From Chloroflexota bacterium (GTDB lineage: Bacteria; Chloroflexota; Limnocylindria; Limnocylindrales; CSP1-4), in the NCBI GenBank assembly GCA_021815005.1, contig JAKAHL010000162.1, positions 1-5,291 on the forward strand: a stretch of DNA of 5,291 nt. Direction: 5' to 3'. This document shows positions 2 to 5,290 of the stretch, in pieces; positions within the stretch are counted from its first letter, which is position 1, and every line of letters starts with the position of its first letter. Below the pieces are notes generated by a model that saw only the letters and a program-made list of their open reading frames with translations, was not told where the DNA came from and ran no database searches. The position numbers and the translations under genes are program-made.

Positions 2-241
2 GAGCGCGAGGGACGCGTGGTCTCCGCCACGCTGGTCACCGAGCCCGAGGGCGGCCCGATGGTGGCGATCGCGATGACGCACCCGACGTGGCAGCGGAAG
101 GGCCTCGCCCGGGCGAGCGTCGCCCGGGCCATGGCGCGCCTGGCGGCGCGGGGCGAGACGCGTGTGGACGCGCTCGCCACCGACGACAACGAGCGGGCGC
201 TCGCCCTGTTCCGGAGCCTGGGGTTCGCGGAGCGCGCCTGA
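2..241 (+). CDS. GNAT-family N-acetyltransferase, C-terminal fragment (5' end outside window)
   Basis: The reading frame is open from the left edge and ends at TGA 239-241, giving 79 residues of the C-terminal half of a GNAT domain. A beta strand (VAIAMTHPTW) runs into QRKGLA (fragment residues 31-36), which matches the acetyl-CoA pyrophosphate-binding motif Q/R-x-x-G-x-G/A. A helix rich in Ala and Arg follows. The end, DDNERALALFRSLGF, is the usual GNAT closing motif, in which the Asn (residue 63) and the 'lGF' turn lie near the active site. The family moves an acetyl group from acetyl-CoA to an amine. The substrate cannot be told from this part. GTG at 17 is an internal Val codon, not a likely start, because coding similarity continues upstream of it. 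The gene converges on msrA, 106 bp away. I am confident of the family but not of the specific role. Confidence 0.85.
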   Translation, partial: EREGRVVSATLVTEPEGGPMVAIAMTHPTWQRKGLARASVARAMARLAARGETRVDALATDDNERALALFRSLGFAERA

Positions 242-347: not shown

Positions 348-1010
348 CTACCGGTCGGCTGCCGGGACCCCGACGCCGATCGGGCACGCGATGCCAGTGG
401 CGGTGTGGCAGTCGTACCCGTCCGGGTTCTTCGCCAGGTAGCCCTGGTGGTAGTCCTCGGCGAAGTAGAAGGTCGTCGCCTCGACGATCTCGGTGGTGAT
501 CGCCCCGAACCCGGCCCGCGCCAGCTCGCGGCCGTACACCTCGCGCGAGCGCAGCGCCGCGGCCAGCTGCTCCGGGCCGCGCGCGAAGACCGCCGACCGG
601 TACTGCGTGCCCACGTCGTTCCCCTGGCGGTAGCCCTGGGTCGGGTCGTGGGCCTCCCAGAACTCGCGCAGCACCCGCTCGTACGAGATGGCCTCCGGGT
701 CGAACACCACGCGCACGGTCTCGGCGTGGCCGGTCCGGCCCGTGCAGACCTCCTGGTAGGTCGGGTTCGGGGTCGCGCCCCCCTCGTAGCCGACGGCGGT
801 GACCCACACGCCCGGCAGGCCCCAGAACCGCTTCTCGGCGCCCCAGAAGCAACCCATGGCCACCTCGGCGACCTCCAGGCCGACAGGGTACGGACCGGCC
901 AGGGGACGGCCCAGCAGGGCGTGCTCGCCGGGGGCAGCCACCGGCTCGCTTCGGCCCGGCAGGACCTCTGACAGGCGGGGCATGGACGGCTTGGGGAACG
1001 CGAAGCGCAT
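348..1010 (-). CDS. msrA: Peptide methionine (S)-S-oxide reductase MsrA
   Basis: This 220-residue cytoplasmic enzyme reduces the S-epimer of methionine sulfoxide, free or in proteins, using thioredoxin. The signature GCFWG is at residues 53-57, with catalytic Cys54. The family motifs YEGG (75-78), PTYQEVCTGRTGHAE (83-97, with the substrate-site Glu97) and QGNDVGTQYRS (129-139) follow in the expected order. DYHQGYLAKNP (186-196) precedes Cys201 and Cys209. These sit eight residues apart, like the two recycling cysteines of E. coli MsrA, so a relay from Cys54 to a C-terminal disulfide and then thioredoxin is likely. The ATG at 1010-1008 has a GGAGG Shine-Dalgarno 9 nt upstream, which supports this start. 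There is no signal peptide. The N-terminal 45 residues (FPKPSMPRLSEVLPGR and on) are an extension common in long MsrA proteins. The gene is divergent from the arsR-dsbA-ccdA operon. The stop is TAG at 350-348. Confidence 0.96.
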   Translation of the reverse strand: MRFAFPKPSMPRLSEVLPGRSEPVAAPGEHALLGRPLAGPYPVGLEVAEVAMGCFWGAEKRFWGLPGVWVTAVGYEGGATPNPTYQEVCTGRTGHAETVRVVFDPEAISYERVLREFWEAHDPTQGYRQGNDVGTQYRSAVFARGPEQLAAALRSREVYGRELARAGFGAITTEIVEATTFYFAEDYHQGYLAKNPDGYDCHTATGIACPIGVGVPAADR

Positions 1011-1019
1011 GGATGGGGA

Positions 1020-1024
1020 CCTCC
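1020..1024 (-). promoter_or_regulatory. Shine-Dalgarno of msrA
   Basis: GGAGG on the minus strand ends 9 nt before the msrA ATG and decides that start over internal Met codons such as Met10. Just upstream, minus-strand TAGACT (1040-1035) could be a -10 element (TANNNT), but I see no matching -35, so the msrA promoter is not settled. Confidence 0.6.
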
Positions 1025-1044
1025 GTGTCCCGAGAGTCTACGGC

Positions 1045-1136
1045 GCCCACGGCGACCGGGCCGCGCGCGAGGGTTTCGCCGGCCACGGCGACGGCCGCGC
1101 GATCACCCCGCCGGCGGGCCACGCCGACGGCCGCGC
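1045..1136. repeat. Three imperfect direct repeats with 36-bp spacing in the msrA-arsR control region
   Basis: A core of about 20 bp occurs three times, starting at 1045, 1081 and 1117. The second copy is GGCCACGGCGACGGCCGCGC, and the third differs from it at one base. The first reads GCCCACGGCGAC, then two extra bases, then GGCCGCGC. The start-to-start spacing is exactly 36 bp both times, because the insertion in the first copy is offset in its spacer. A perfect 12-bp palindrome, CCCGCCGGCGGG (1107-1118), lies between copies two and three. The repeats sit in the non-coding gap between two divergent genes. They could be regulator sites or leftover GC-rich repeat expansion. Confidence 0.65.
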
Positions 1137-1141
1137 ACACC

Positions 1142-1160
1142 GGTCCGACCCTGGTCCGAC
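1142..1160. promoter_or_regulatory. Paired GGTCCGAC boxes one helical turn apart, upstream of the arsR promoter
   Basis: GGTCCGAC occurs at 1142-1149 and again at 1153-1160, an 11-bp step that places both on the same face of DNA. Each contains the odd palindrome GTC-C-GAC. The second box ends 6 bp before the candidate -35. This position would suit an activator or an upstream operator half. The protein that would bind is unknown. Confidence 0.4.
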
Positions 1161-1166
1161 AGGCCC

Positions 1167-1196
1167 TTGACCCATCAGCCGCTGCTGACATATCCT
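1167..1196 (+). promoter_or_regulatory. Candidate sigma-70-type promoter of the arsR-dsbA-ccdA operon
   Basis: TTGACC (1167-1172) matches the -35 consensus at five of six positions. After an 18-bp spacer, TATCCT (1191-1196) fits the -10 pattern TANNNT. Transcription would start near 1203, giving a leader of about 30 nt before the TTG start at 1232. This is the only AT-richer stretch in the gap, which adds support. The promoter lies inside an upstream open frame in phase with arsR, which argues that the longer frame is not translated from this transcript. Confidence 0.6.
1175..1188. promoter_or_regulatory. Candidate ArsR operator: inverted repeat within the promoter spacer
   Basis: TCAGC-CGCT-GCTGA is a perfect inverted repeat with 5-bp arms and a 4-bp centre. 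It lies entirely between the -35 and -10 elements. A dimeric winged-helix repressor bound here would block RNA polymerase, the usual mode for ArsR/SmtB regulators that control their own operon. The arms are short and the site does not copy a known ArsR box, so the assignment rests on position and symmetry. Confidence 0.5.
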
Positions 1197-1231
1197 GCGG
1201 CCGCTGGTCCCCGTCATCGAGGCGCCCCGAC

Positions 1232-1555
1232 TTGTCTGCCGTGCCCCCGCCGCGCCCCCGACGCGATCTCGTCCCACCGGACGTGTCCCGCGCGGTGGAC
1301 GTCGCCCGGCTGATCGGCGACCGCTCGCGGGCCACCATCCTCGCGATGCTCGCTGACGGACCCCACTGCGTGTGCGAGTTCGCCACGGCCCTGGGCGCCC
1401 GCGAGAACAACGTCTCCAACCACCTCGCCCGCCTGCGCCAGGCCGGCCTCGTCCGGTCCACCCGCCACGAGGCGAACGGCCGGCTGCAGTACTACGAGCG
1501 GGACGAGGCGGCGGTGGAGGCCGCCCGCACCGCGCTGTCCACCCTCCTTCGCTGA
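1232..1555 (+). CDS. ArsR/SmtB-family winged-helix repressor with a CVC thiol motif
   Basis: This small DNA-binding regulator is 107 residues long from the TTG at 1232, or 104 from the GTG at 1241. The domain runs from DVARLIGDRSRATILAML through the helix-turn-helix ENNVSNHLARLRQAGLV to the wing RSTRHEANGRLQYYE. GPHCVCEFATAL aligns with the arsenite site GELCVCDLCTAL of E. coli ArsR. The first two cysteines (46 and 48 in the TTG numbering) are kept and the third is Ala. The known role of this motif is to bind As(III)/Sb(III) and release DNA. Here the ligand is inferred, and thiol oxidation or another thiophilic metal is possible. TTG 1232 is preferred because CGAGG (1218-1222) ends 9 nt before it. 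The frame stays open back to 1013, but that stretch contains the promoter. It is the first gene of the operon, 19 nt before the dsbA-like gene, and probably represses it. Confidence 0.85.
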   Translation: MSAVPPPRPRRDLVPPDVSRAVDVARLIGDRSRATILAMLADGPHCVCEFATALGARENNVSNHLARLRQAGLVRSTRHEANGRLQYYERDEAAVEAARTALSTLLR

Positions 1556-1574
1556 CAACCCGGAGTACCGACCC

Positions 1575-2384
1575 ATGGCCAACCGACGTCCCGCCGACCC
1601 CGCGCACGGTGCCGGCAAGGGGTCGACCCGATCCGAGCGGCGCGCCGCCGGCCACCAGGGCACGCGCCCCAGCCGCCCGGCCCCCAAGGCCCCCGAGTCC
1701 GCGCTCGCCCGCACCGTCCGTCGCTGGGCGCTGCCGGCCGTGCTCGCGGTCGCCGTCGTGGTGGCGGCGGGCGTCATCGTGGCCGGCATGATGGCGCCGC
1801 CCGCGCCGGTCGCCAACGTCGTCCGTCCTGCCCAGGGCCCCGCCACCGCAGCCGTCACCGTGGCCGAGTACTCGGACTACCAGTGCGACTACTGCGGCCG
1901 CTGGGCGCGCCAGGTGGAGGCCAGCTTCAACTCCACGTTCGTCGCCACCGGCAAGGTCCGCTTCGAGTGGCACGACGACGCCTGGGAGGGCCAAGAGTCC
2001 GTCGATGCCGCCAACGCCGCCCGCTGCGCCGGCGACCAGGGCAAGTTCTGGGAGATGCACGACCTGCTCTACAACTCCCAGAACGCCACGCCCAACACGG
2101 GGGCGTTCACCAAGGACAAGCTCAAGTCGATGGGGGCCACGCTGGGCCTCAACACGGTCACCTTCAACGCCTGCGTCGATGCCGGCACCTACAACGCGGC
2201 GGTCCAGGCCGACACCGCCGCCGCCCAGAGCGCGGGCATCTCCGGCACGCCCGCCTTCAGCGTCAACGGCGCGCCCCTCGAGGGGTACCAGACGCTGGCG
2301 CAGATGACCGCCGCTATCGACACGGCCGCCGGTACCGCCCCCGCGGCGTCCTCCCCGGCCGCGTCGTCCTCCACCGCCCCGTGA
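1575..2384 (+). CDS. Membrane-anchored DsbA-like thiol-disulfide oxidoreductase (Thioredoxin_4 type)
   Basis: A 269-residue extracytoplasmic thioredoxin-fold protein. Residues 1-51 are polar and strongly basic. One transmembrane helix follows (about 52-73), so the N terminus should stay in the cytoplasm and the rest face outside. VTVAEYSDYQCDYCGRW carries the CxxC active site Cys104-Asp-Tyr-Cys107. AARCAGDQGKFWEMHDLLY (148-166) and the later FNACVDAG (198-204) are typical of the Thioredoxin_4 (BdbD-like) branch. Cys151 and Cys200 may form a second disulfide. GISGTPAF (221-228) holds the cis-Pro226 loop that faces the active site. A low-complexity Ala/Ser/Pro tail (about 252-269) ends the protein. 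The ATG at 1575 has GGAG 9 nt upstream. The next gene is a CcdA and not DsbB or VKOR, which suggests it is kept reduced and works as a reductase or isomerase. That direction is inferred. Natural substrates are unknown. Confidence 0.92.
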   Translation: MANRRPADPAHGAGKGSTRSERRAAGHQGTRPSRPAPKAPESALARTVRRWALPAVLAVAVVVAAGVIVAGMMAPPAPVANVVRPAQGPATAAVTVAEYSDYQCDYCGRWARQVEASFNSTFVATGKVRFEWHDDAWEGQESVDAANAARCAGDQGKFWEMHDLLYNSQNATPNTGAFTKDKLKSMGATLGLNTVTFNACVDAGTYNAAVQADTAAAQSAGISGTPAFSVNGAPLEGYQTLAQMTAAIDTAAGTAPAASSPAASSSTAP

Positions 2385-2421
2385 CCCGCTGCCGGACGCC
2401 CCGACCGAGCCAGGCCGCCTG

Positions 2422-3264
2422 ATGGTCGAGCTGCTCGTCGCCTTCGTTGGCGGCGTCCTGTCGCTGCTCTCCCCGTGCTCCGCACTCCTGCTCCCGGCGT
2501 TCTTCGCCTACGCGTTCCCCTCCCCTGCCCGCCTAGCGGCCAGAACGGCCATCTTCTACGCGGGGATGCTGACGCTGCTCGTCCCGCTCGGCGTGGGCGC
2601 CGGCGCCATCGGCGGCGTCCTGATGGCGCAGCGCGGCACGCTGATGGCGCTCGCGGGGGTGGTGCTGGTGGCCATCGGCGTCCTGCAGTTCGCGAAGGGC
2701 GGCTTCGAGCTGGCGGGCACCGGCGGCGGCACCGGGCTCAAGCCCATGACCGCGGAGCGCGCGGCCAGCACCTACGCCCTGGGCCTCGGCTTCGGGCTCG
2801 GCGGGTTCTGCGCCGGGCCGATCCTCGGCGGTGTCCTCACGATCGCCGCGTCCTCCGGCGGCGCCCTCTCCGGCGCGGCGCTGCTGGCCGCGTACGCGGC
2901 CGGGATGGCCGCCCCGCTGTTCGTCGTGGCCCTCGCCTGGGAGCGGCTCGGGGCGTCGGGCCGGGGCCGGCTCCGCGGGCGCGACGTCCGGATCCTCGGC
3001 ATCGAGCGCCACGTCACGATCGTGGTGTCGAGCGTGATGTTCATCGTGCTCGGTCTCGTGTTCATCGTGCTCGAGGGCGCCAACCCGGCTGCCGGCCTCT
3101 ACAACGCGCTGGGCCTGGCCGACCTCTCGGTCACGCTGCAGAGCGCGCTGCTCAGCGCGACGGCCGGCCTCTCGCCGGCAGCCCCGGCCACCGTCGCCCT
3201 GGCCGTGGTGGCCGCGGCTGTGATCCTCGTCATCCGCCGCCGGAGGGCGCGCGCGCAGGGCTGA
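2422..3264 (+). CDS. ccdA: CcdA/DsbD-type transmembrane thiol electron carrier
   Basis: A 280-residue polytopic membrane protein that moves reducing equivalents from cytoplasmic thioredoxin to thiol proteins outside the membrane. Helices are seen at about 3-27, 40-64, 70-90, 116-142, 149-172 and 198-218. An extra helix at 253-271, followed by RRRRAR, makes it longer than a minimal six-helix CcdA. The two redox cysteines are present. Cys19 is in LLSPCSALLLPAFFAYAF and Cys130 is in GGFCAGPILGGVL, matching the conserved SPC...LP and C-x-GPILG motifs of helices 1 and 4. The Pro three residues after the first Cys in DsbD (CVLP) is absent, and the usual TPC before helix 4 is GFC, so this is a variant CcdA subgroup. 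ATG 2422 is 37 nt after the dsbA-like stop with only a weak Shine-Dalgarno. The likely partner is the DsbA-like protein encoded just upstream. A cytochrome c maturation role is possible, but no cytochrome gene is in view. Confidence 0.92.
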   Translation: MVELLVAFVGGVLSLLSPCSALLLPAFFAYAFPSPARLAARTAIFYAGMLTLLVPLGVGAGAIGGVLMAQRGTLMALAGVVLVAIGVLQFAKGGFELAGTGGGTGLKPMTAERAASTYALGLGFGLGGFCAGPILGGVLTIAASSGGALSGAALLAAYAAGMAAPLFVVALAWERLGASGRGRLRGRDVRILGIERHVTIVVSSVMFIVLGLVFIVLEGANPAAGLYNALGLADLSVTLQSALLSATAGLSPAAPATVALAVVAAAVILVIRRRRARAQG

Positions 3265-3287
3265 GCCTACGGCCTACGCCCGCGCGT
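3251..3287. terminator. GC-rich hairpin spanning the ccdA/ispG convergent junction
   Basis: Bases 3251-3261 pair with 3278-3287 to form a 10-bp stem with one bulged A at 3257 and a terminal G-T pair. The 16-nt loop TGAGCCTACGGCCTAC holds the stop codons of both genes. Within the loop, GCC-TAC-GGC (3265-3273), the whole 9-bp intergenic sequence, can form a small inner stem. The hairpin would form in transcripts from either strand. It lacks a U-tract, so it may be a bidirectional pause or 3'-end stabiliser and not a classic intrinsic terminator. Confidence 0.5.
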
Positions 3288-4509
3288 ACCGCCGGTCCAC
3301 GTAGTCCTCGAGCAGGTCGATGAACTCGGCGACGATGCGGTCGCCGCGGAGCGTCCGGTCCAGCTTGCCGTCCACGAACACCGGCGCCACCGGCGCCTCG
3401 AACGTGCCCGGCAGCGAGATCCCGATGTCGGCGTGCTTGGACTCGCCGGGCCCGTTGACCACGCAGCCCATGACCGCCACCCGCATGTCCTCCACGCCGG
3501 GGTGCGTCTCGCGCCACTCCGGCATCCGGGCCTTGAGGTGCTCGGTGATCTCCTTGGCCATCTCCTGGAAGAACGTCGAGGTGGTCCGGCCGCAGCCCGG
3601 GCACGCGGACACCTGGGGCAGGAACGACCGCAGGCCCATCGACTGGAGCACCTGCTGGGCCACCTCCACCTCCAGCTCGCGCCCGGCCCCGGGCTCGGGC
3701 GTGAGCGAGACGCGGATCGTGTCGCCGACGCCCTCGTTGAGGAGCACCGCGAGCCCCGCCGTGGACGCCACGATGCCCTTCATGCCCATGCCCGCCTCGG
3801 TCAGGCCGAGGTGCAGCGGGTAGTCCGAGCGGGGCGCGAGGCGGCGGTACGTGTCCACGAGGTCGCGGACGCCCGACACCTTGGCCGACAGGATGATCCG
3901 GTCGTGGCGCATGCCCGCCGACTCCGCCAGCTCCGCCGACCGCATCGCCGACTCGACCATCGCGTCGATCATCACGTCGCGGGTGTCGCGCGGCGCCGCC
4001 CCACGGGCGTTCGCCTCCATCATCGCGGTCAGCAGGTCCTGGTCCAGGGAGCCCCAGTTGACCCCGATCCGGACCGGCTTGTCGTGCTCGACCGCGACCC
4101 GGACGATGGTCGTGAAGTTCTCGTCGTGGTGCTTGCCGCCCACGTTGCCCGGGTTGATGCGGTACTTCGCCAGCAGGCGCGCCGTCTCCGGGTACTGCAC
4201 CAGCAGCCGGTGACCGTTGTAGTGGAAGTCGCCGATGACCGGCACGTCCACGCCCAGGCCATCCCGGAGCTTGCGCAGCATCTCCGGCACGGCGGCCGCC
4301 GCCTGCTCGGTGTTCACCGTGACGCGGACGAGCTGCGAGCCGGCGTGGGCCAGCCGCGCGACCTGGATCGCCGTGGCGTCGGGATCCGCCGTGTCGGTGT
4401 TGGTCATCGACTGGACCACGATCGGGTGCGCGGACCCGACGATCACGCCCCCGACGTCCACTGACACGGTCGGGCGCCGCACCGGGCGCAGGGCTTCGGC
4501 CGAGCCCAT
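3274..4509 (-). CDS. ispG: 4-hydroxy-3-methylbut-2-enyl diphosphate synthase IspG (GcpE)
   Basis: This cytoplasmic 4Fe-4S enzyme performs the penultimate step of the MEP pathway. It reduces and opens the ring of 2-C-methyl-D-erythritol 2,4-cyclodiphosphate to HMBPP, with electrons from ferredoxin or flavodoxin. The N-terminal TIM barrel contains [14 protein letters not shown] (29-42), YRINPGNVG (116-124), [12 protein letters not shown] (145-156) and [11 protein letters not shown] (230-240). The C-terminal domain has SACPGCGRT (301-309) and [11 protein letters not shown] (346-356), giving cluster ligands Cys303, Cys306, Cys349 and Glu356. At 411 residues it exceeds E. coli IspG (372). Cys306 and Cys349 are 43 residues apart, against 32 in E. 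coli, because of an inserted segment around 328-341. The ATG at 4509-4507 starts one base after the rseP stop, with GGAGG 5 nt upstream. The stop TAG (3276-3274) is 9 bp from the convergent ccdA stop. Confidence 0.97.
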
Positions 4510-4510
4510 G

Positions 4511-5290
4511 TCAGCCTCCCCCGCCGATGCCGCGGGCGATGTCGAAGAACGTGACCCAGATGAGGAAGCCGAACAGCGCGAGGAACCCGATGGCGTAGGT
4601 CGCCTGCTCGGCGCGCTGGCTGATCCGGCGGCCGACGCGGGGGATGGCCTTGAGCACGATCACCAGCATCCGGCCCCCGTCGAGCGGCGGGAACGGCAGG
4701 ACGTTGACCAGGGCGAGGTTGGCGGACAGGATCCCCGCGACGTAGAGGGTCATGATCGGGCCCTCGCTGCGGAACGTCTGGCCCAGCTCGCCGGCGATGC
4801 CCACAGGACCGGACACCGGCGGGGCGGACGTCGGGTGGTTCACGATGGCGCTGCCCAGCTGGCCGAGGGCGTCGACGATCGCGGTGAACCAGTAGGTGGT
4901 CTCCTGCCAGCCGATCGAGAGCGACTCGCCGATCGGGCGCCGACTGGACTCCGCGAGCACCACCGGCTGGAAGCCAGCGTCCGCCGCCCGAATGCCGAGC
5001 GCGCCCTTGCCCGCCGCCACGTCCGCCTTGGAGCGAAGCGTCACGGTGTAGGTCGCCGGCGTGCCGTCCGCACGGATCACGCCCAGCTGGATCGTCTGGC
5101 CCGCGTGGTCGTACAGCTGGGTCACGATGGAGCCGGGGCCGTAGCGGGCGTCGTAGAAGTCGTACATCCGGCCGTCGATCGAGACGATCGTGTCGGTCGC
5201 CGCCACCCCGGCCGCCGCCGCCGGCGAGCCCGGCTCCACCGACGCGAACCGGATGCCGATGTCCGGCGCGCCGACCAGCGCGATGAGATC
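4511..5290 (-). CDS. rseP: Site-2 intramembrane metalloprotease (RseP/Rip1 type), C-terminal part (5' end outside window)
   Basis: The frame is open from the right edge and encodes 259 C-terminal residues of a membrane zinc protease of the M50 family, which cuts transmembrane anchors such as anti-sigma factors. It opens with a PDZ domain: [19 protein letters not shown], then DTIVSIDG, up to about residue 90. [12 protein letters not shown] and [12 protein letters not shown] follow. The LDGG motif (encoded at 4684-4673) supplies the third zinc ligand, Asp. A hydrophobic segment precedes this motif, and a final helix, [18 protein letters not shown], lies close to the end. The HExxH zinc-binding helix must lie beyond the window. 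GTG at 5239 is an internal Val codon within the PDZ domain. The protein ends in GIGGGG, and those Gly codons supply the ispG Shine-Dalgarno. The gene is immediately upstream of ispG in one transcript. In many bacteria dxr lies before rseP, so dxr may be next off-window. Confidence 0.93.
4515..4522 (-). promoter_or_regulatory. ispG Shine-Dalgarno embedded in the rseP Gly codons
   Basis: Minus-strand GGGGGAGG lies within the last codons of rseP (GGC GGG GGA GGC TGA) and ends 5 nt before the ispG ATG. With a single base (4510) between stop and start, a ribosome ending on rseP can restart on ispG, so the two are probably translationally coupled. Confidence 0.75.

Follow-up and report, generated by a model that had tools for sequence, protein, structure and literature searches.

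The window analysed here, a stretch of 5,291 bases that makes up the whole of contig C139 in a draft Chloroflexota genome (72% complete, 2.05 Mb, 317 contigs), carries a cassette of three genes, arsR-dsb-ccdA, encoding an ArsR/SmtB-type repressor, a DsbA-like protein with a predicted membrane anchor and a CcdA-type membrane electron carrier. We consider it probable that dsb and ccdA form a dedicated relay that would carry reducing power outward, and we think it somewhat better than an even chance that the repressor answers to an arsenic- or antimony-like ligand. Because these two readings are not independent, we hold at about even chances their combination, a metalloid-inducible relay that would pass reducing electrons outward to the anchored DsbA-like protein. 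On this reading, exposure to arsenic-like poisons would probably induce the repair of thiols at the cell surface.

The three genes run in one direction, with 19 nucleotides between arsR and dsb and 37 between dsb and ccdA, and a scan of positions 950-3400 found one promoter-like site, ahead of arsR (shuffled sequence gave a mean of 0.0). This layout had been proposed in a preliminary description made from the window's letters alone, as had the identities of the products, a CVC-type ArsR, a single-pass DsbA-like protein and a CcdA. Coordinates and promoter scan agree with the former; Pfam and NCBIfam, whose profile cut-offs were used to name proteins, agree with the latter, as do a structural model of the anchor helix and a match to the solved CcdA 5vkv. 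The divergent msrA beside the block and an inverted repeat in the promoter spacer are additional to that description. Open reading frames were called with a simple program, and among neighboring genes at other loci representatives were named with Pfam and the remainder by similarity to them. The cassette, together with a divergent msrA, is found in five of the 12 draft genomes of the window's genus, where the two gaps span 16-21 and 22-40 nucleotides. A single promoter-like site stands at the matching place in each of the genus's other four cassette loci (L006-L009), scanned around arsR. Across arsR, dsb and ccdA the ratio of nonsynonymous to synonymous substitution rates is 0.09-0.31 (five pairings per gene), and the three genes are under purifying selection.

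The pairing of dsb with ccdA reaches well beyond this genus. With CcdA as the query, 77 of 126 genomes of the order gave some match and 15 a strong one (E < 1e-39), five of these in the window's genus; dsb lies directly upstream of ccdA in all 15. When named genomes were scanned with CcdA alignment A1, at least 592 stretches from at least 498 relatives were returned, and among the best 80 loci kept, from Chloroflexota and Actinomycetota, dsb precedes ccdA in the same orientation in 79, the last (L127) starting at a contig end. A CVC-type ArsR precedes the pair in only three of these 80, all in the window's genus. The near-constant dsb-ccdA pair is the old unit here, and ArsR a local addition to it. 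The conservation of gene order that the preliminary description looked for therefore holds in part: arsR-dsb-ccdA is kept in five genomes of the genus, and among the loci scanned the link to ArsR is confined there. Other regulators near the pair, among ten neighbor genes checked, are a divergent ArsR-domain gene without CxC (L132) and a Crp-type gene (L146). The CcdA search of plasmids gave no match at 1e-15.

In 14 of the 80 best loci an in-frame TGA replaces the first active-site cysteine codon of dsb, giving a UxxC form (L120, L122, L123, L125, L126, L129, L133, L134, L136, L137, L138, L140, L148 and L162); 11 of the 14 are titled Rubrobacteraceae or Rubrobacter, and a fifteenth candidate, L124, is incomplete at its edge and stands outside the count. 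The TGA is likely to encode selenocysteine, although this is not proven in each locus. Selenocysteine tRNA was searched for with the Rfam cut-off in 13 of the 14 UxxC loci, representing 12 genomes, and passed it in 8 of these 12 genomes, in 3 of 4 with cysteine-type Dsb and in 5 of 14 controls; sub-threshold matches turned up in every one of the 14 controls and were left uncounted. DsbA-like selenoproteins are on record in PMC1794560 and PMC13188914. We take the UxxC loci as fitting a reductase.

The Dsb protein of the window scores 103.3 bits against Thioredoxin_4 (cut-off 23.2) and has the features of the DsbA fold, a CDYC site and a TP loop (GTPAF); C104 and C107 are kept in all 11 aligned sequences. 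Its model has one N-terminal helix (residues 43-72) followed by the thioredoxin fold, and the protein is predicted to be tethered on the outer side of the membrane. By sequence and by fold its top structure matches are TsdA and Bacillus subtilis BdbD, with ScsC structures ranking lower. Its only NCBIfam match is NF041057, the Rcas_1661 family thioredoxin-like (seleno)lipoprotein, at 130.5 bits, under the curated cut-off of 190; that family name includes selenocysteine forms, whereas the window protein has cysteine. CcdA lies barely over the DsbD_TM cut-off (28.4 against 27.1 bits), and its profile matches 5vkv at 1.5e-20. Two membrane cysteines, C19 and C130, are present and invariant in all 14 aligned sequences (alignment A1 holds 14 of the 15 strong sequences and alignment A2 holds 11). 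The structure model of CcdA is weak (mean predicted local confidence, pLDDT, of 66) and was used solely for its match to 5vkv (E 9.9e-4). Another DsbD_TM protein is encoded in 12 of 12 genomes of the genus and VKOR in 10 of 12, VKOR not being found in the incomplete G000 or in G016, and because of these the dsb-ccdA pair looks specialised. A Dsb-type frame adjoins VKOR in two of six VKOR loci examined; one of the two was checked and is Thioredoxin_4.

The repressor belongs to an arsenic-type family. The window ArsR is over the cut-offs of HTH_5 (48.5 bits, cut-off 22) and of the NCBIfam metalloregulator ArsR model NF033788 (65.3 bits, cut-off 55), and its sole cysteines form the CxC motif C46-V-C48. 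Searching the 126 genomes of the order with this protein gave 59 loci at E <= 3e-28, the next matches being 2e-13 and weaker; all 59 were fetched and their neighbors within 2.5 kb examined. Five of them adjoin dsb, ccdA and msrA. The remaining 54 divide into 50 near ArsP, ACR3-like, ArsM-like or ArsA genes, three near Thioredoxin_3 alone, which is not specific to arsenic, and one (L100) near none of these. Over the whole subfamily the neighbors number 41 ArsP, 43 Thioredoxin_3, 15 ACR3-like, 2 ArsA and 2 ArsM-like. ArsP_1, Thioredoxin_3 and ArsA are Pfam names; an SBF-family protein we presume to be ACR3, and a methyltransferase-domain protein ArsM. Both CVC cysteines are present in all five cassette proteins and all 54 others. 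The five cassette ArsRs form a single clade (support 100/100) nested among the other members, its exact place being moderately supported (92/82, 83/76). No third cysteine occurs in the window ArsR or in three of the other four cassette ArsRs, that of G010 having one at position 103; nine ArsRs of the same genus on the ars side likewise have just two. Two cysteines can suffice in Escherichia coli ArsR. In L090 (2416-4037) and related loci, the gene for ArsR is lined up with those for an ArsP_1 permease and a small Thioredoxin_3 protein.

A candidate operator lies where a repressor of this family could act on its own operon. In the window an inverted repeat sits between the promoter hexamers, and in the cassettes of G007 and G010 the promoter spacer reads TATCTCAG-N6-CTGAGATA; the repeat is slightly changed in G009 and degenerate in G000 and G008. 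The right half in the window, CTGACATA at 1185-1192, differs from CTGAGATA at one base. The half-site CTGAGAT is also found upstream of 23 of 52 ArsR paralogs (two of the 54 upstream regions were too short and were excluded), against a mean of 1.3 and a maximum of 5 in 300 shuffles. This 7-mer was chosen after both sets had been inspected by eye, which leaves the test short of fully blind; when every 7-mer of the paralog upstream regions was counted, CTGAGAT and its one-base shift (25 of 52) were the two commonest. Across the 12 genomes of the genus, ATCTCAG-N4-24-CTGAGAT occurs at four places, two of them the G007 and G010 cassettes, one within coding sequence (G011) and one (G007:C48) that seems to lie between genes, close to a gene identified by eye as Rieske-like. 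Because the half-site is common to cassettes and paralogs, autorepression of the cassette by ArsR is likely; this says nothing about the ligand.

In the model we propose, ArsR would occupy the inverted repeat of the promoter spacer as a dimer and so repress the operon that encodes it. The repressor would come off once C46 and C48 had bound As(III), Sb(III) or a different soft agent with affinity for thiols. CcdA, through C19 and C130, would then move electrons from cytoplasmic thioredoxin to CDYC in its DsbA-like partner, which would reduce or reshuffle wrong disulfides, or free metalloid-blocked thiols, in exported proteins. It is tempting to go further, if tentatively and at slightly less than even chances, and to speculate that one Chloroflexota lineage took over a repressor from an arsenic operon and put under its control an ancient CcdA-DsbA module, in places a selenoprotein, that would repair poisoned thiols outside the membrane, with no pumping or modifying of arsenic. 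If the model is true, metalloid resistance extends beyond efflux and arsenate reduction to cell-surface thiol repair, and the cassette offers a naturally inducible way into the study of a CcdA-DsbA pair. Many Actinomycetota loci have this pair, in some of them likely in a selenocysteine form, so a biochemical answer would bear on many genomes.

Several points weigh against this model. Foremost against a purely reducing relay is TsdA of Corynebacterium diphtheriae, which at raised expression can stand in for MdbA during oxidative folding in vivo (PMC9974433); that paper also places a HAD-family gene downstream of tsdA and leaves CcdA unmentioned. The adjacency of dsb and ccdA is itself no proof of electron flow, and the order-wide CcdA search found no strong match in 7 of the 12 drafts of the genus. 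On the regulatory side, Cys95 is present in 35 of the 54 subfamily relatives and in none of the five cassette ArsRs, and the ligand could therefore have shifted. The window operator is degenerate, with one half-site that carries a mismatch, and exact CTGAGAT is absent from the cassette promoters of G000 and G008. Among the paralogs, 29 of 52 are without an exact half-site, and those with two have them more widely spaced than the cassettes do. In favor of a reducing role, isomerase and reductase activity of TsdA in vitro had been reported earlier, as the same source states (PMC9974433), and a reference title in PMC10451225 has the periplasmic thioredoxin SoxW reduced by the CcdA orthologue SoxV.

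The TsdA precedent leads to the most serious alternative, still unlikely, in which the DsbA-like protein is a TsdA-like oxidase or general oxidoreductase, ccdA serves other clients and the operon boosts oxidative folding under stress. TsdA (also deposited as DsbA, 4pwo) and BdbD are indeed the top sequence and fold matches, and TsdA, a membrane-tethered protein, makes up for the loss of MdbA (PMC9974433). Yet dsb adjoins ccdA in 79 of the 80 best loci, in two phyla, and the genus encodes VKOR elsewhere in 10 of 12 genomes, with a Dsb-type frame beside it in two of six loci. We regard as least probable of all a role for the pair in cytochrome c maturation, with Dsb in the place of ResA or CcmG and ArsR incidental. 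Deinococcus CcdA is encoded with cytochrome c maturation genes, as PMC8945050 states; against this, the other DsbD_TM protein is universal among the 12 genomes of the genus, the window CcdA has no strong match in seven of them, and no cytochrome gene is among the named proteins of the window (Pfam, NCBIfam).

Two further alternatives concern what ArsR senses. It is quite unlikely that it detects sulfane sulfur or oxidants, as do SoxR, SqrR and BigR, with the relay serving sulfur chemistry in the manner of SoxV and SoxW. This idea draws on SoxR, an ArsR-family repressor of sox genes that accompany SoxV, the CcdA that reduces SoxW (PMC10451225), and on L047 (1077-5475, G073), where a non-CxC ArsR-domain gene followed by a lactamase-fold/rhodanese gene lies about 1 kb upstream of dsb-ccdA, an arrangement that suggests sulfur-linked control. 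The SoxR-type cysteines, however, are C50 and C116, 66 residues apart according to the same source, whereas the window ArsR has only C46 and C48; the BigR model reaches 25.2 bits against a cut-off of 155; no sox gene is among the named window proteins (Pfam, NCBIfam); and the subfamily sits with ars genes. Persulfide sensing of the SoxR, SqrR or BigR kind is rejected on the cysteine pattern and the BigR score. A shade less probable is a Cd, Pb or Zn sensor of the CadC or CmtR type. In the structure database the sequence of ArsR matches best that of 3f72 (7e-07), a cadmium efflux accessory protein known as CadC, and the CmtR model NF047906 gives 42.7 bits; its cut-off of 150 is not reached, on which ground CmtR identity is rejected, the window ArsR has no cysteine beyond C46 and C48, and the neighbors of its relatives are ars genes (metal P-type ATPases were not looked for there).

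A plain ars operon is likewise rejected, as the preliminary description had argued, because no ars enzyme or pump is named in the window: ArsC, ArsB/ACR3 and ArsA are absent from its Pfam- and NCBIfam-named proteins, and the cassette is flanked by msrA and ispG. Precedents for parts of the cassette are published, namely CcdA in ars operons, ScsB with ScsC, and SoxR with SoxV and SoxW. The published ars operons likewise combine CcdA with thioredoxin-fold proteins (8 instances, 7 organisms); arsC is present in seven of the eight and the authors proposed a role in arsenate reduction, whereas the window is without an ars enzyme or pump, and the CcdA partner with the thioredoxin fold is predicted to be tethered on the membrane's outer side. 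The sox clusters share an ArsR-family repressor, a CcdA orthologue and a periplasmic thioredoxin or Dsb-type protein (SoxR, SoxV, SoxW and SoxS; PMC10451225), and differ in that SoxR senses sulfane sulfur through C50/C116 and serves sulfur oxidation, the window having a CxC ArsR and no sox gene. ScsC and ScsB resemble the cassette in a DsbA-fold extracytoplasmic protein, a predicted membrane partner and a tie to metal stress (PMC5524982). There the partner is ScsB; in the window it is a CcdA-type carrier, a DsbD_TM gene with no further named domain. TsdA (7unn, 4pwo) is the closest solved structure, a membrane-tethered thioredoxin-fold oxidoreductase at 29% identity with CPFC in place of CDYC, and is shown in oxidative folding (PMC9974433). 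The CYT module of Arthrobacter plasmids also clusters a regulator with CcdA and DsbA-family genes and differs in its COG3682 regulator, two CcdA genes and a DsrE/DsrF gene (PMC6305408). What looks new is a cassette that joins a CxC repressor of the ars type to a DsbA-like/CcdA pair, predicted to act outside the cytoplasm, and to nothing else, at a site that is empty in two relatives. Literature searches on combinations of CcdA, DsbA, ArsR, Scs and Sox, judged mostly on titles, gave none on this cassette among the papers listed.

Those two relatives are G014 and G015, where msrA follows ispG on the same strand with 27 nucleotides between them; the cassette site is therefore empty there. In G006, G012 and G013 ispG is present and the cassette does not adjoin it, in G016 the contig stops inside or at ispG, and in G011 ispG was not found. 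As the genomes of the genus are drafts, such absences are soft, the two empty sites excepted. A tree of IspG unites the five cassette genomes with G014 and G015 (100/99) without resolving the three inner groups, and it fits gain of the cassette by the five as well as loss by G014 and G015. In 17 loci of other genera msrA was not seen near ispG within up to about 1.5 kb on each side. The 7-mer CTACGGC, which stands at both borders of the cassette (1038 and 3267), was considered as a flanking duplication and discarded because the same two 60-base stretches have a second 7-mer in common.

Table 1. Features of the 5,291-base window, with position, strand and basis of assignment.
Feature	Position	Strand	Basis
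GNAT gene end	2-241	+	Pfam/NCBIfam naming
msrA, divergent neighbor of the cassette	348-1010	-	PMSF 6.4e-58
Sigma-70-like promoter TTGACC-18-TATCCT	1167-1196	+	only promoter-like site in 950-3400
Candidate ArsR operator TCAGC-CGCT-GCTGA in promoter spacer	1175-1188	.	sequence and alignment
arsR, ArsR/SmtB repressor	TTG 1232 (or GTG 1241) to 1555	+	HTH_5 8.2e-13, NF033788
arsR C46-V-C48 codons	1367-1375	+	sequence
Shine-Dalgarno-like CGGAG before dsb	1561-1565	+	sequence; also in L006-L009
dsb, single-pass DsbA-like Thioredoxin_4 protein	1575-2384	+	Thioredoxin_4 2.1e-29
dsb active-site C104-D-Y-C107 codons	1884-1895	+	sequence
ccdA, DsbD_TM membrane electron carrier	2422-3264	+	DsbD_TM 28.4 bits; 5vkv 1.5e-20
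ccdA C19 codon; C130 codon	2476-2478; 2809-2811	+	sequence
ispG, convergent neighbor, right cassette border	3274-4509	-	GcpE 7.8e-113
rseP gene end	4511-5290	-	Pfam/NCBIfam naming

Some minor observations accompany these features. In the window msrA is divergent from arsR at a distance of 221 nucleotides, and the two may share a regulated region. Between the GNAT gene end and msrA, at 258-316, lies a tandem repeat with a 22-nucleotide unit in 2.7 perfect copies. Elsewhere in the order, L049 (4450-11100, G009) holds a second cluster, in which a DsbD_TM gene is joined by genes for two AhpC/Redoxin-type proteins, for a penicillinase-repressor-type regulator and for an M56 peptidase, along with a further CcdA-like gene recognised by similarity alone, with no Pfam match. 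Similar frames are present in L050 (G010) and L051 (G073), Pfam naming having been applied to L049 alone, and the L049 cluster resembles the CYT module of Arthrobacter plasmids.

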